Assembly (NCBI RefSeq): GCF_022429565.1
Contig: NZ_CP092487.1
Span: forward strand, 3,738,001-3,802,000
DNA from: Lutibacter sp. A64
GTDB lineage: Bacteria > Bacteroidota > Bacteroidia > Flavobacteriales > Flavobacteriaceae
DNA length: 64,000 nucleotides
Reading direction: 5' to 3'
The position numbers and the translations under genes were made by a program. The notes below the pieces were generated by a model. That model did not search any database and was not told where the DNA came from. It worked only from the letters and a program-made list of their open reading frames with translations. Shown here piece by piece: positions 57,383 to 63,552 of this stretch; within the stretch, counting starts at the first letter, position 1; each line of letters begins with the position of its first letter.

Positions 57383-57413
57383 GCTAAAAGGAGTAAAAAA
57401 TTACTGCTTTAGC
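57383..57413 (-). promoter_or_regulatory. Alternative hairpin overlapping the SAM-II core (candidate expression platform)
   Basis: On the minus strand GCTAAA pairs with TTTAGC and AGTAA with TTACT around a four-T loop. GCTAAA is also the conserved 3' core of the SAM-II-like aptamer, so this hairpin and the ligand-bound pseudoknot exclude each other. No T run follows, so control of translation is more likely than termination. Confidence 0.5.
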
Positions 57414-57453
57414 ATTTTTTAACGAGGTTGCAATCAGATCAAATTTTTCCTCC
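57403..57453 (-). ncRNA. SAM-II-like riboswitch upstream of metK
   Basis: Read on the minus strand, GAGG (57449-57452) and CCTC (57424-57427) form the short P1 stem. The loop contains ATTTG, four bases and GATTGCA, and the 3' side after P1 contains GTTAAAA and GCTAAAG. This order is the conserved core of the SAM-II H-type pseudoknot as I know it. The element sits between the predicted promoter and metK, 70 bases before the ATG. The call is motif-based without a covariance search. Confidence 0.75.
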
Positions 57454-57468
57454 TAAATATTTCGTCTG

Positions 57469-58036: not shown

Positions 58037-58066
58037 TTGGATTTTAAAAAAATGTGATTACATTTG
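58037..58066 (+). promoter_or_regulatory. Promoter of the metY leader transcript
   Basis: TTG at 58037-58039, a 19-base spacer and TACATTTG at 58059-58066 match the Bacteroidetes -33/-7 promoter exactly. The predicted start near 58073 is about 14 bases before the ATG of the first leader peptide. Confidence 0.75.
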
Positions 58067-58086
58067 TCGTATCAAAAAAGAATAAA

Positions 58087-58155
58087 ATGACAATTAAATT
58101 TAATATAATGCGTGCTATGATGTGTAGAATTTACACAGAGGATGCTATTGTTTAA
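58087..58155 (+). CDS. Leader peptide 1 (Met/Cys-rich, 22 residues)
   Basis: ATG at 58087 opens a 22-codon frame with the core IMRAMMCRIY. Four of 22 residues are Met, including a Met-Met-Cys run at codons 11-13 (58117-58125). The stop is 26 bases before an intrinsic terminator. The 3' part of the frame carries CAGAGG (58136-58141), complementary to CCTCTG in the 5' arm of that terminator. A ribosome stalled at the Met codons would leave CAGAGG free to pair; one that reaches the stop would cover it. This is the layout of an amino-acid leader attenuator for the metY gene downstream. Confidence 0.7.
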   Translation: MTIKFNIMRAMMCRIYTEDAIV

Positions 58156-58177
58156 AATTTAATAAAACATAAATAAT

Positions 58178-58208
58178 AAAAACCTCTGATGAAAATCAGA
58201 GGTTTTTT
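58178..58208 (+). terminator. Attenuator terminator 1
   Basis: ACCTCTGAT and ATCAGAGGT form a 9-bp stem with a GAAA loop, extended by A-T pairs and followed by six T residues. It lies between two Met-rich small frames and well before metY, so it is an attenuator rather than a gene-end terminator. Confidence 0.85.
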
Positions 58209-58228
58209 ATTTTAAAAACAATTATAAT

Positions 58229-58321
58229 ATGAAAATTACTTTCCAAAATAGAACGTCAAACCAATTTGAAATGTGTATGCGAATGATGCGTAACACAATG
58301 AACTGGTATTGCCTAAAATAA
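58229..58321 (+). CDS. Leader peptide 2 (Met/Cys-rich, 30 residues)
   Basis: ATG at 58229 opens a 30-codon frame whose second half reads EMCMRMMRNTMNWYC. Six of 30 residues are Met and two are Cys, far above average. The stop is 25 bases before a second intrinsic terminator. GGTATTGCC near the end of the frame (58305-58313) can pair, with one mismatch, with GGTAATACC (58358-58366), which spans the end of the 5' arm and the loop of that terminator. No separate promoter is visible, so it lies on the same transcript as leader 1. Confidence 0.68.
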   Translation: MKITFQNRTSNQFEMCMRMMRNTMNWYCLK

Positions 58322-58345
58322 ATGGAAAATAAAATCTAATTAGAT

Positions 58346-58388
58346 AAAAGTCCCTTTGGTAATACCTAGAACCAAAGGGACTTTTTTT
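58346..58388 (+). terminator. Attenuator terminator 2
   Basis: AAAGTCCCTTTGGT and ACCAAAGGGACTTT form a 14-bp stem followed by seven T residues. It ends 39 bases before the metY start codon, so read-through is required for metY expression from the upstream promoter. Confidence 0.88.
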
Positions 58389-58426
58389 ATTAAAAATTAA
58401 AACTAAAAAAATAAAATTATAAGATT

Positions 58427-59707
58427 ATGAGTACTCAAAAAATTTCTACACAAGCATTACACGCAGGACACGATACAACAAAAAATGGAGGCACTAGAGC
58501 AGTTCCAATTTATCAATCAACTTCATATGTTTTTAACAATACAGAGCATGCTGCAAATTTATTTTCATTAAAAGAATTAGGGTTTATTTATGCAAGATTA
58601 AACAATCCAACAAATGATATTTTGCAACAACGTTTAGCAGCAGTTGAAGGAGGAGTTGGAGCTGTTGTATTTGCCTCTGGAACTTCAGCAATTTCAACAG
58701 GATTGTTAACTTTGTTAAAAGCTGGAGATCATATTGTTGCATCAAGTAGTTTATATGGTGGTACCTATACGCTTTTAAATGTTACTTTGCCAAGATTAGG
58801 AATTACAACAACATTTGTAGACGCTTCAAATCCAGATAGTTTTAAAGATGCTGTTCAAGAGAATACGAGAGCGTTTTTTGTAGAATCTTTAGGAAATCCA
58901 AAATTAGATGTTCTAGATTTAGAAGCTATTGCAGCGCATTCAAAAACTGCTGGTGTTCCATTTATTGTAGATAATACGGTTGCAACGCCAGCATTATTAA
59001 ATCCAATTAAACATGGAGCAAATTTGGTAATTCATTCATTGACAAAATATATTGGCGGACAAGGGAATTCTTTAGGAGGTGCAATTATTGATGCTGGAAC
59101 TTTTGATTGGACAAACGGAAAATTTCCTGAATTTACAGAGCCGTCAGCAGGTTACCATGGCTTAGTTTATAGTGAAGCTTTAGGAGCTGCAGCATTTACT
59201 TTTAAATTAATTTTAGAGGGTTTACGTGATTTTGGTGGTGCTTTAAGTCCGTTTAACGCTTTTCAAATTATACAAGGGTTGGAAACTTTACCTGTTCGTA
59301 TTAAACAACACAGTGCAAATGCATTAGAATTAGCAAAATGGTTAGAAAGTAGAGAAGAAGTAGCTTGGGTAAATTATCCAGGTTTAGAAAGTAATAAGTA
59401 CAATACATTGGCTAAAAAATATTTGCCAAAAGGGCAAAGTGGATTGGTTACATTTGGAGTAAAAGGAGGGTTTGAAGCAGCTAAAAAAGTCACAGATGCA
59501 ACTGAAATATTTTCACTACTTGCAAATATTGGAGATACAAAATCATTAATTATACATCCAGCAAGTACAACACATCAACAATTAACAGTTGAGCAACAAG
59601 CAAGTGCAGGTGTTGGTCAAGATCTAATTAGATTATCTGTAGGTCTTGAAGATATTGAAGATTTAAAAGGAGATTTAGAACAGGCTTTCAAAAAAATAGT
59701 AGATTAA
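58427..59707 (+). CDS. metY: O-acetylhomoserine sulfhydrylase (aminocarboxypropyltransferase)
   Basis: The 426-residue PLP enzyme of the Cys/Met metabolism family begins STQALHAGHDTTKNGGTRAVPIYQSTSYVF. ARLNNPTNDILQQRLAAVEGG, FASGTSAISTGLLTLLKAGD and SLTKYIGGQGNSLGG, with the PLP lysine in SLTKY, are present. It makes homocysteine from O-acetylhomoserine and sulfide. Two Met-rich leader peptides with terminators precede it, and the gene for its substrate-producing enzyme follows after a SAM-I riboswitch. Confidence 0.95.
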   Translation: MSTQKISTQALHAGHDTTKNGGTRAVPIYQSTSYVFNNTEHAANLFSLKELGFIYARLNNPTNDILQQRLAAVEGGVGAVVFASGTSAISTGLLTLLKAGDHIVASSSLYGGTYTLLNVTLPRLGITTTFVDASNPDSFKDAVQENTRAFFVESLGNPKLDVLDLEAIAAHSKTAGVPFIVDNTVATPALLNPIKHGANLVIHSLTKYIGGQGNSLGGAIIDAGTFDWTNGKFPEFTEPSAGYHGLVYSEALGAAAFTFKLILEGLRDFGGALSPFNAFQIIQGLETLPVRIKQHSANALELAKWLESREEVAWVNYPGLESNKYNTLAKKYLPKGQSGLVTFGVKGGFEAAKKVTDATEIFSLLANIGDTKSLIIHPASTTHQQLTVEQQASAGVGQDLIRLSVGLEDIEDLKGDLEQAFKKIVD

Positions 59708-59770
59708 ATTTTGTTTGAGAAAAAATTATTGCGTTAATTTGTTGCTTAGTTCATAAGCATATTGACTATT

Positions 59771-59868
59771 GTTATCAAGAAAGGCAGAGGGAATAGACCC
59801 TGTGAAGCCTTAGCAACCCTTTAACTTGTAAAGAAGGTGCTAAATTCTACCCATTTTGGATAGATAAC
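59771..59868 (+). ncRNA. SAM-I (S-box) riboswitch
   Basis: The aptamer is recognisable throughout. P1 pairs GTTATC with GATAAC. AAGAAAGGCAGAGGGA is followed by ACCCTGTGAAGCCTTAGCAA and CCCT, AGAAGGTGCTAAATTC, then TACCC and the closing arm. The GAGGGA, GAAGCC, GCAACC and GGTGCTAAATTC blocks are S-box core elements. It would repress the downstream MetX-AK-HSD fusion when SAM is abundant. A possible weak promoter lies just upstream (near 59711-59741, TTAATTTG). Confidence 0.95.
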
Positions 59869-59873
59869 TAAAC

Positions 59874-60017: not shown

Positions 60018-60045
60018 TTAAATAAAGTTTAATAAGTAATAATTG

Positions 60046-63000
60046 ATGAAGCAATTGCAACATATAACTCTTTCCAATTTTATTTCTGAAAAAGGATATA
60101 GAAGTGAACAACTTCAACTTTCTTATGAAGTTTTTGGAAAAGAATTGTATTCTGCTCCTATTATTTTAATAAACCATGCTCTAACAGGAAATTCTAATGT
60201 AGCTGGAAAAGGTGGCTGGTGGACAGATTTAGTTGGAGAAAATAAGGTGATAGATACCAATCAATACACTATTTTATCGTTTAATATTCCTGGAAATGGG
60301 TACGATGGTTTTGTAATTGAAAACTATAAAGATTTTGAGGCGAGAGATATAGCAAACATATTTTTATTAGGGCTTGAAAAATTAAAAATACAAGGTCTAT
60401 TTGCATTAATTGGAGGTTCTTTAGGTGGTGGAATTGCTTGGGAAATGGCAGTTATAAGTCCAAAAATTACCGAACATTTAATATTAATTGCTACCGATTG
60501 GAAAGCTACCGATTGGTTAATTGCAAACTGTCAAATTCAAGAACAGTTTCTTGTAAATTCTAGCAATCCAGTACATGATGCACGTATGCATGCAATGCTG
60601 TGTTACAGAACGCCAGAATCTTTTAAAAAGCGTTTTCAACGTTCTAAAAATGAAGCATTGGCCATTTTTAATGTAGAGAGTTGGTTGTTGCACCACGGCA
60701 AGAAATTACAAGAACGCTTTCAATTATCTGCTTATAGATTAATGAATCAATTGCTTAAAACTATTGATGTTACCAAAGGAAGAGATGCACATGTTTTAGA
60801 TTCAATTAAAGCAAATATTCATATTATAGGAGTAGATTCAGATTTGTTTTTTACGGCTGAAGAAAATAAAGAAACACATAAACAATTAGCATTAACAAAC
60901 CCGAATGTTACTTATAACGAAATTAATTCGGTACACGGACACGATGCTTTTTTAATGGAATATAAACAATTAGGGAAAATTATAGAACCAATTTTTAACA
61001 TAAGTTCTAAACATAATAAGATGAAAATAGTAAAATTTGGAGGGAAGTCTTTAGCAAATGGTTTAGGTTTAGAAAGTACCTTAGCTATTATTAAAAATAA
61101 AATTGACAACAACGAAAATATAGCAGTAGTAGTTTCTGCACGTGGTAAAACTACAGATCATTTAGAGTCTATTTTAGAAAAAGCTAAAAATAGTTTGCCT
61201 TATGTAGAAGAATTTGAACAGTTGAAAAATTATCAGTTAGAGGCTGATAATACAGTAGATTTATCTGCAGAATTTCAATTGTTAGAAGAAATTTTTAAAG
61301 GCGTTAATTTACTTGGAGATTACAGTGTAAAAGTTAAAGATCAAGTACTTGCTCAAGGTGAATTAATTTCAGCTAAATTGGTTGCAAATTTATTGAATAA
61401 AAATGGTGTAAAAGCCAATTTTGTAGATACTCGTTTGTTAATTAAAACAAATAATCAGTTTGGAAAAGCACAACCTTTTGAAAATACTTCAGAAGAAAAT
61501 GTTATTGAGTTTTTTAGAAATCAACCAGATGATATTACTCAAATTATTACAGGTTTTATTGGTTCAAATTTACAAGGAGAAACAACAACTTTAGGAAGAA
61601 ATGGTAGTAATTACACAGCTTCTTTAATTGCTAATTTTTTAAATGCACAAGAGTTTCAAAACTATACACATGTTGATGGAATTTATACAGCAAATCCAGA
61701 CTTGGTTGAAAACGCAAAAAAAATTGAAAAATTAAGCTATCAAGAAGCCAATGAAATGGCAAATTTTGGAGCTAATATTTTACATGCAAAAACTATTATT
61801 CCTTTAATTGAGAAAAATATTCCTTTACGAATTTTAAACACCTTTAATGCTAATAATGAAGGAACTTTAATAGGTAAAGAAACAGAACGTGGAGGTATAA
61901 AATCGCTTTCAGTTGAACAAAATGTTGCTTTGGTAAACTTAATAGGTAGAGGATTATTGGGTAAAGTTGGTGTAGATGGTAGAATTTTTGGAGCTTTAGG
62001 TAGAGAAAATATAAGTGTAAGTATTATTTCTCAAGGATCATCAGAACGAGGAATTGGTTTTATTGTAGATGCTAAAAATGGCTATAGAGCTAAAAAAGTA
62101 CTAGAAGAAGAATTTAAAACAGAATTTCAAAGTAAAGATGTAAGTCAGGTTTATGTTACAGAAAATGTTTCGGTAATTTCTATTATAGGTCAAAGTTTAT
62201 ATTCTTTTAATCAGCCATATAGCGCGTTAATTAAAAACCATATAACACCTATACTAATTAACAATACGGTTACTGGAGAAAATGTATGTTTGGTTGTAAA
62301 ACAAACAGATTTAAAAAAGGCTGTTAATGTTATTCATGGAGAGATTTTTGGAGTTTCAAAAAATGTAAACATTGCTATTTTTGGGAAAGGTTTAGTTGGA
62401 GGAACGCTTATAAATCAAATTTTAAAGAGCAAAGACAATATTATTAAAAGAAAAAACATCAACTTAAATATTTTTGCTGTAGCAAATTCATCAAAAGTTT
62501 TATTGAATAAAAATGGGGTTTCTACAGATTGGGAAAAAGACTTAGAAAAAAGTGACGTAGAAAACAGTATTCAAAATATTTTAGAATATGCAGAAAAATT
62601 TCATTTAGAAAATTTAATTGCAATTGATAATACCGCTAGTAGCGAGTTTGTTAAACATTATATAGAATTAGTTGAAGACGGTTTCGATTTAATTTCTTCA
62701 AATAAAATTGCAAATACATTAGATTATACTTTTTATAAAGAATTAAGAGAAAAACTAAGTAAAAATAAAAAAACATATTTATACGAAACTAATGTTGGTG
62801 CTGGATTACCATTAATAGATACTATAAAATTATTACATGATTCTGGTGAAAATATAACAGGAATAAGAGGTGTGTTTTCGGGATCGTTAAGTTATTTATT
62901 TAACAATTATTCAGCACAAGATCGTCCGTTTAGTGTAGTTTTAAAAGAAGCTATAGAAAACGGATATACAGAACCAGATCCACGTGAAGATTTATGTGGA

Positions 63001-63435
63001 AACGATGTAGGTAGAAAATTATTGATATTAGCACGTGAATTAGATTTACAAAATGAATTTACAGATGTTAAGATTGAAAATTTAATTCCTGAAGATTTAC
63101 GTGAAGGTTCCGCATCAGAATTTTTAGGTAAACTTGATGAGATGGATGCATATTATCAGGATATTAAAGACAGTCAAAAAGAAGGTCATGTTTTAAGATA
63201 TATTGGAGATTTATCTGGTAATTTACAAGAAGATAAAGGAATTTTAGAAGTAAAATTAATTTCTGTACCTGCAAATAGCGCTTTAGGTCAAATACAAGGA
63301 GCCGATGCCATTTTTGAAGTATTTACAGAATCTTATGGAGAAAAACCTATTGTAATTCAAGGAGCTGGAGCAGGAGCGGCAGTGACAGCACGTGGAGTTT
63401 TTGGTGATGTTTTAAGACTAGCAGAGAAAAATTAA
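60046..63435 (+). CDS. metX-thrA: Trifunctional MetX - aspartokinase - homoserine dehydrogenase fusion
   Basis: The 1129-residue protein holds three enzymes. Residues 1-325 are a MetX-type acyltransferase: NHALTGNSNVAGKGGWW, the nucleophile elbow GGSLGGG (Ser125), and the remaining triad residues Asp266 and His299 (HGHDAFL). An internal ATG at 61021 begins the aspartokinase (residues 326 to about 770, MKIVKFGGKSLANG, TTTLGRNGSNYTASL, two ACT regions). Homoserine dehydrogenase follows (773-1129, IAIFGKGLVGG, SSNKIANTLDY, GLPLIDTIKLL). Together they turn aspartate towards homoserine and O-acylhomoserine. A TTG at 60043 is also in frame, but ATG at 60046 is preferred. A SAM-I riboswitch lies upstream. 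Confidence 0.93.
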   Translation: MKQLQHITLSNFISEKGYRSEQLQLSYEVFGKELYSAPIILINHALTGNSNVAGKGGWWTDLVGENKVIDTNQYTILSFNIPGNGYDGFVIENYKDFEARDIANIFLLGLEKLKIQGLFALIGGSLGGGIAWEMAVISPKITEHLILIATDWKATDWLIANCQIQEQFLVNSSNPVHDARMHAMLCYRTPESFKKRFQRSKNEALAIFNVESWLLHHGKKLQERFQLSAYRLMNQLLKTIDVTKGRDAHVLDSIKANIHIIGVDSDLFFTAEENKETHKQLALTNPNVTYNEINSVHGHDAFLMEYKQLGKIIEPIFNISSKHNKMKIVKFGGKSLANGLGLESTLAIIKNKIDNNENIAVVVSARGKTTDHLESILEKAKNSLPYVEEFEQLKNYQLEADNTVDLSAEFQLLEEIFKGVNLLGDYSVKVKDQVLAQGELISAKLVANLLNKNGVKANFVDTRLLIKTNNQFGKAQPFENTSEENVIEFFRNQPDDITQIITGFIGSNLQGETTTLGRNGSNYTASLIANFLNAQEFQNYTHVDGIYTANPDLVENAKKIEKLSYQEANEMANFGANILHAKTIIPLIEKNIPLRILNTFNANNEGTLIGKETERGGIKSLSVEQNVALVNLIGRGLLGKVGVDGRIFGALGRENISVSIISQGSSERGIGFIVDAKNGYRAKKVLEEEFKTEFQSKDVSQVYVTENVSVISIIGQSLYSFNQPYSALIKNHITPILINNTVTGENVCLVVKQTDLKKAVNVIHGEIFGVSKNVNIAIFGKGLVGGTLINQILKSKDNIIKRKNINLNIFAVANSSKVLLNKNGVSTDWEKDLEKSDVENSIQNILEYAEKFHLENLIAIDNTASSEFVKHYIELVEDGFDLISSNKIANTLDYTFYKELREKLSKNKKTYLYETNVGAGLPLIDTIKLLHDSGENITGIRGVFSGSLSYLFNNYSAQDRPFSVVLKEAIENGYTEPDPREDLCGNDVGRKLLILARELDLQNEFTDVKIENLIPEDLREGSASEFLGKLDEMDAYYQDIKDSQKEGHVLRYIGDLSGNLQEDKGILEVKLISVPANSALGQIQGADAIFEVFTESYGEKPIVIQGAGAGAAVTARGVFGDVLRLAEKN

Positions 63436-63466: not shown

Positions 63467-63552
63467 AAAACGCGTTAGCGATAGTAGTGGCATCCTTTTT
63501 TAAAGTGGAACGAAGAAAAAGATATAACGGATAGCGCGACCTGCAAGGAAAC
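63467..63552 (+). repeat. Probable dispersed REP-like element
   Basis: The gap between the fusion gene and the next CDS holds GCGTTAGCGATAGTAGTGGC with ATCCTTTTTT, then AAAAAGATATAACGGATAGC and GCGACC. This two-armed layout, GC-rich ends around a T-run/A-run stem, recalls a repeat found between many flavobacterial genes. The base composition is clearly higher in GC than its surroundings. The identity is from memory and needs a genome-wide check. Confidence 0.5.

Follow-up and report, generated by a model that had tools for sequence, protein, structure and literature searches.

The region upstream of metY in Lutibacter sp. A64 very probably carries a tandem ribosome-mediated transcription attenuator, in which translation of two short Met/Cys-rich leaders would sense charged tRNA-Met and, probably, charged tRNA-Cys. 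The stretch analysed here (the window) comprises 64 kb inside the complete 4.03 Mb genome (G000), and direct reading of its sequence identified, ahead of metY, a conserved promoter followed by two modules in series. Each module combines a Met/Cys-rich ORF with an intrinsic terminator, and an RNA arm within the ORF can pair with the terminator on its 5' side. Our assignment is built from sequence and comparison, namely the promoter, the ORFs and their Met/Cys content, the terminators, the mutually exclusive and covarying pairings, and the geometry. Translation of the leaders, stalling, termination, the response to Met, Cys and tRNA charging, and any sharpening by the tandem arrangement are inferred, there being no transcript, ribosome-profiling or expression data.

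The promoter is of the Bacteroidetes type (TTG-N19-TACATTTG, 58037..58066, forward strand), with TTG at 58037-58039, a 19-base gap and TACATTTG at 58059-58066, and it recurs in this or a near-identical form across the aligned Lutibacter sequences. Downstream on the same strand lies leader ORF 1 (58087..58155, 22 codons, MTIKFNIMRAMMCRIYTEDAIV), with Met-Met-Cys codons at 58117-58125 and, further on in the frame, antiterminator arm 1, CAGAGG (58136..58141). This arm pairs with CCTCTG (58183-58188) in intrinsic terminator 1 (AAAACCTCTGAT-GAAA-ATCAGAGGTTTTTT, 58179..58208) and is probably extended by an inner stem in the ATTGTTT/AATAAT region. Leader ORF 2 (58229..58321, forward, 30 codons, MKITFQNRTSNQFEMCMRMMRNTMNWYCLK) has its Met/Cys codons at 58271-58288 and arm 2, GGTATTGCC, directly before the stop codon (58305..58313). 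Its partner, GGTAATACC (58358-58366), is contained in the 5' arm and loop of intrinsic terminator 2 (AAAAGTCCCTTTGGT-loop-ACCAAAGGGACTTTT, 58346..58388, forward). The regulated gene, metY, follows at 58427..59707 on the forward strand as an ORF of 426 aa of the O-acetylhomoserine sulfhydrylase family (PF01053, E=1.6e-131). Direct reading bore out the coordinates given in a preliminary description of this locus, the two complementarities (CAGAGG/CCTCTG and GGTATTGCC/GGTAATACC) on which it relied, and its count of 10 Met and 3 Cys among the 52 leader residues, start codons included. Its stop-to-stem spacing of 25-26 bases needs a small correction: the G+C stem is 27 bases from the stop codon in module 1 and 28 in module 2, or 23 and 24 bases when the A-tract pairs are counted.

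Searches with Rfam at gathering scores placed SAM aptamers only before metX and metK and none in the metY leader (58037-58426), and no T-box was matched anywhere in the window; T-box and riboswitch readings of the leader were set aside. The two aptamers belong to the context of the locus, outside the attenuator. One is a SAM-I riboswitch (RF00162, 84 bits; 59769..59870, forward) between metY and a gene in which a metX-like hydrolase is fused with aspartokinase and homoserine dehydrogenase in a single frame of 1130 aa (60043-63435, forward). The other is a SAM-II riboswitch (RF01726, 64.6 bits; 57399..57458, reverse) before metK, a gene identified by PF00438, PF02772 and PF02773. The two classes thus lie within 2.5 kb of each other, on either side of metY; a 2007 report (PMC2258182) found no species with both. 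The neighbourhood also includes a gene for a DM13-domain protein (PF10517; 57584-58024, forward) between metK and the metY leader, and a Flavo-1 RNA (RF01705, 48.4 bits; 63469-63545, forward) 3' of the metX fusion gene.

In the mechanism that we propose, when Met and Cys are plentiful the ribosome would reach the stop codon of each leader and cover the arm in its last codons (58136-58141 or 58305-58313), the downstream terminator would form, and transcription would end before metY. If either amino acid is scarce, the ribosome would stall in the Met/Cys cluster (58117-58125 or 58271-58288), leaving the arm ahead of it free to pair at 58183-58188 or 58358-58366, on the 5' side of the terminator, so that no terminator would form and RNA polymerase would continue. 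Two such gates in series would be expected to lower basal expression and sharpen the response. The geometry fits this scheme, as inferred from the coordinates and the usual ribosome footprint: with a Met codon at 58117/58120 or 58283/58286 in the A site the ribosome should end short of the arm, and at the stop codon (58153 or 58319) it should cover it, so stalling would free the arm and completion would hide it.

How unusual the leaders are was assessed against every ATG-started ORF of 12-45 codons on either strand of the window (437 in all). ORF 2 contains the densest Met/Cys stretch of the set, with 7 in 14 codons (next best, 5); ORF 1, with 4 in 14 codons, is unexceptional alone, about 15 ORFs in the window scoring equal or higher. 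The case therefore rests on comparative evidence, and this makes both ORFs significant.

We searched 38 Lutibacter genomes and obtained intact upstream sequence for module 1 in 29 and for module 2 in 30. Both ORFs and both terminators were kept at all metY loci with intact upstream sequence, each ORF being followed in every aligned sequence by a hairpin and T run between it and the structural gene. The preliminary description had named as refuting a loss of Met codons, or of the frames, among close relatives with the hairpins still present; we saw the opposite in every such Lutibacter. Leader lengths varied (22 or 23 codons for leader 1; 28, 29, 30 or 32 for leader 2), always by multiples of three bases, and ATG accounted for 17.2% and 18.6% of codons in frame versus 0-1.5% in the other two frames. 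This conservation of the frames may be read as indirect support for translation of the leaders. In Lutibacter genomes without MetY, module 2 had no good match and module 1 was matched at background level only. Away from metY, the sole copy that covariance models of both modules picked up in the genus was one module 1 in G005.

Within these frames the positions of Met and Cys change from sequence to sequence without loss of richness. Leader 1 variants include MRAMMC, MMCMMC and MCGMMC, with R, M or C in column 9 and C, T, N or M in column 10, and leader 2 variants include EMCMRMM, CCMQMQMM and NMCNLMTMCMQMMC; where leader 1 overlaps its pairing arm, the alignment columns lack Met and Cys, except column 19 in 2 of 24 sequences. 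Such turnover with retained richness is what would be expected under selection on codon content and not on a peptide fold. It bears on the possibility that the leaders are arrest peptides, in which a small molecule (SAM, Met or a different sulfur compound), bound by the nascent chain in the exit tunnel, stalls the ribosome and so frees the arms. Identical RNA anatomy would serve such a mechanism, and the MMC cluster of leader 1 is indeed nearly invariant within Lutibacter. Arrest peptides, however, keep a defined sequence, whereas leaders from different genera share little besides an abundance of Met and Cys, the two residues exchanging at the same places, and a leader before a serine acetyltransferase gene (described below) has Cys only. 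We consider arrest quite improbable.

Both terminators and both alternative hairpins folded better than shuffled sequences (z of -5 to -7 and of about -3.5 to -5, respectively), with z about -7 for terminator 1, which was present in all aligned sequences, and about -5.5 for terminator 2, which showed 99% standard pairs with covariation. In nearly every Lutibacter sequence the stretch that runs from leader end to terminator loop folds into the antiterminator when the terminator 3' arm has not yet been made. Arm 2 forms standard pairs in 252/252 cells (100%) over 28 distinct sequences, 10 of which carry a compensatory double change from G-C to A-U; the value falls to 24-67% when the alignment is slid by 1-3 columns. 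For arm 1 the value within Lutibacter is 91%, with zero double changes.

Between genera both pairings change in concert. Arm 1, CAGAGG/CCTCTG in Lutibacter, becomes TAGGGG/CCTCTA (L031, L132), CAGGG/CCCTG (L293), CGAAGG/CCTTTG (L259) and CAGCGG/CCGCTG (L276, with the core also in L253 and L264), and arm 2 becomes GCTATTATC/GGTAATAGT (L094), CTATTGCC/GGTAATAG (L253) and GGTATTGCC/GGCAATACC (L205). The prediction that the alternative pairings covary was thus met for module 2 within Lutibacter and for both modules between genera, but not for module 1 within the genus, where double changes are absent. We also exchanged terminators between lineages in silico (20 loci for module 1, 15 for module 2; 20,000 permutations). 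Leader 3' ends paired much better with their own terminators than with those of other lineages, with means of -11.9 versus -9.1 kcal/mol for module 1 and -14.0 versus -10.6 kcal/mol for module 2. None of the 20,000 permutations reached the real pairing (p about 5e-5 for each module), a p value that is only approximate, some loci being closely related. Antiterminator 2 is predicted to overlap the terminator stem directly only in part, and its exclusion of the terminator leans on additional pairs in the modelled fold. Taken with the frames and the Met/Cys content, these pairings support the earlier proposal of translation-coupled Met attenuation, twice in series, the attenuation effect itself being inferred.

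The system is not confined to one genome and, judging from the loci compared, replaces a SAM-I riboswitch, two points that go beyond the preliminary description, as does the probable reading of Cys as well as Met. We examined 180 metY upstream regions from the family Flavobacteriaceae (L001-L118, L205, L210, L242, L244 and L246-L303), scoring SAM-I by a sequence pattern, with an Rfam check on a subset and five inspected by eye. Directly upstream of metY, 121 had a SAM-I riboswitch, 46 had Met/Cys-rich leaders, none had both and 13 had neither. In two of these 13 (L095 and L301) a SAM-II riboswitch lies directly upstream of metY, a third solution for this gene. In Lutibacter, g3 and g26, SAM-I sits after metY and before metX.

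Across the family, 15 genera have Met/Cys-rich leaders before metY, with frame, length and richness of leader 1 kept, and the leaders are tandem in 12 (g1, g4, g8, g17, g26, g32, g96, g111, g127, g179, g181 and g204) and single in three (g3, g108 and g142). Stop-to-stem spacing across the family leaders is fixed at about 18-32 bases. Most of the genera other than Lutibacter came from a screen that demanded 4 Met/Cys in 14 codons; richness is therefore no independent count in them, and binomial p values are inflated by this selection. The unbiased test was a codon-blind pattern made of the pairing arms alone (CAGAGG-N-CCTCTG-N-CAGAGG-NTTTT), run on 397 genomes with a reversed control. It gave 8 matches versus 0 for the control, and in 7 of the 8 a Met/Cys- or Cys-rich ORF runs over the arm, six before metY and one before a serine acetyltransferase gene. 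The eighth, in G337, falls at the 3' end of a gene and was dismissed as coincidence.

These distributions also speak to the idea that the ORFs encode Met/Cys-rich microproteins, for instance metal-binding ones, and that the hairpins are ordinary terminators of small transcripts. Copper binding by Met/Cys clusters is known, and the conserved frames and the separate terminator of each ORF are as that idea would have it. It leaves unexplained why the 3' end of each ORF pairs with its own terminator, why stop-to-stem spacing is fixed, and why the ORFs stand before metY in 15 genera and exclude SAM-I, and we regard it as very improbable.

Some loci depart from the general pattern. In the g26 clade (L210, L176) leader 2 lacks most Met codons (the L210 leader is MEKFNKMIRYCQLR) while the GGTATTGCC/GGCAATACC pairing persists; this is a loss of the refuting type, but it affects one module in one genus and is best described, from the sequences, as apparent decay of that module. 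G210 (L350), whose MetY is only 49% identical, has SAM-I followed by a Met/Cys-rich ORF (ending in FMCSPSMRMRMPMSCFSYMCA) and is possibly an exception to the exclusion, with both controls in one leader. Outside the family, in families f2 and f9 of the order (L341, L342 and L344), Met-rich small ORFs occur before terminators upstream of metY; the only convincing pairing among the three is in L344, where 11 bases at the leader end are complementary to the terminator loop.

Leaders of the same kind were found before other genes. G053 has tandem Met/Cys leaders before metY (MRFENKNMMCSMMCKEIYAKGTIV and MNNNLGYNTYYFMEMCMMMQIMQMYYPD) and tandem Cys-only leaders before a serine acetyltransferase paralogue (MNYNKSNNCCKTLCCNNAEVYYIY and MLNFNTIMNNTLIIENTNCCKVQTICCTCCWCPKVLCVM; L245, 725-979), with the same first pairing arm in both sets. 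The codons thus follow the gene product, in this one genome. Among the 30 closest cysE loci of the family the leader was found only in G053 and not in the other 29; a Cys leader proposed at Lutibacter cysE was rejected. In G005 (L119, 3000-4400) a module 1 leader, MNSIMCNMTIMMWKISAE, precedes a TonB-dependent receptor gene that is divergent from one for a secreted SAM hydrolase (SAM hydroxide adenosyltransferase, PF01887), the two perhaps serving uptake and salvage of SAM or Met. This receptor is missing from the rest of Lutibacter. Of three orthologues in the family, only L122, in G235, shows a hairpin together with a Met/Cys-rich ORF (MTKLMCTLRMCCCSC), the other two having none, and both receptor leaders paired poorly with their own terminators in the swap test. 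Rarity among orthologues and poor pairing of arm and terminator make the receptor cases weaker.

A sensor of slow translation in general, with no specificity for an amino acid, could use the same RNA, the arms being freed wherever the ribosome stalls over the cluster. What it fails to account for is the specific enrichment of Met and Cys before sulfur genes, the Cys-only codons before serine acetyltransferase, and the Met/Cys leader at the receptor adjoining the secreted SAM hydrolase; we give this explanation very little credence. A broader extension of tRNA-dependent attenuation is that the family possesses a sulfur attenuator chassis, in which tandem modules with fixed pairing arms are copied between genes as a two-stage gate, the codon register is rewritten and sensing of charged tRNA replaces SAM sensing. 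The registers would be Met/Cys at metY, Cys only at serine acetyltransferase, and single-copy Met/Cys at the TonB-dependent receptor linked to SAM salvage. We offer this as a tentative reading, conceivable but falling somewhat short of even chances.

Bacterial methionine genes are known to be controlled by SAM riboswitches, T-boxes and repressors. The metY leader resembles the trp, his, thr, ilv, leu and phe attenuators of Proteobacteria in having short ORFs with codons for a pathway product, intrinsic terminators and alternative antiterminators, with the outcome set by ribosome position. Unlike these classical systems, it reads Met with Cys, comprises two complete modules in series and is found in Flavobacteriales; unlike in the four-segment trp scheme, the arm is part of the ORF and is itself the partner of the terminator, giving two alternative states. 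By its testable features the metY leader is strongly supported as a member of the leader-peptide attenuators, an assignment made from sequence and comparison and untested at the bench. The SAM-I riboswitch (RF00162) found before metY in most relatives occupies the same position, before the same gene and with the same likely task, but it senses SAM directly, has no leader ORF and is excluded from leader loci.

Bacteroid-trp RNA (RF01692), a Trp leader-peptide attenuator, differs from the metY leader in its amino acid and its genes, and had no match in the window. It is a cis-regulatory RNA of Bacteroidetes (PMC2864571). Polycysteine leaderless short ORFs have been described in mycobacteria (Canestrari et al. 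2020, cited in PMC13236596). Cys leaders of Actinobacteria were reported without conserved terminator hairpins and without Met leaders, the same study stating expressly that it saw no RNA structure for Met in that group (PMC1262725). Like the metY leaders, both kinds place sulfur amino-acid codons before sulfur genes, but with Cys only. The uORFC-8-2 motif, a Cys attenuator of cysS in Rhodobacterales (PMC8632094), likewise has a short ORF (with two conserved Cys codons) followed by an intrinsic terminator; it differs in reading Cys, in its single module, and in its gene and phylum. Exchange of T-boxes or riboswitches for leader peptides has been treated as known (PMC2965389). We found no Met leader peptide or attenuator in the open literature searched; a Met example might be among the cases of Lopatovskaya et al. 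2010, which makes the novelty uncertain. The mechanism is known, the Met/Cys specificity and serial arrangement were not found in the literature searched, and the exchange with SAM-I and the host group further distinguish the metY leader.

If this reading is true, metY responds in some sister genera to the cofactor SAM and in others to the amino acid via its tRNA, and these genera would constitute a natural experiment on what is gained from each signal. The serial pair would offer a test case for the effect of two attenuators in a row, and the cysE case a natural test of whether codons alone set specificity.
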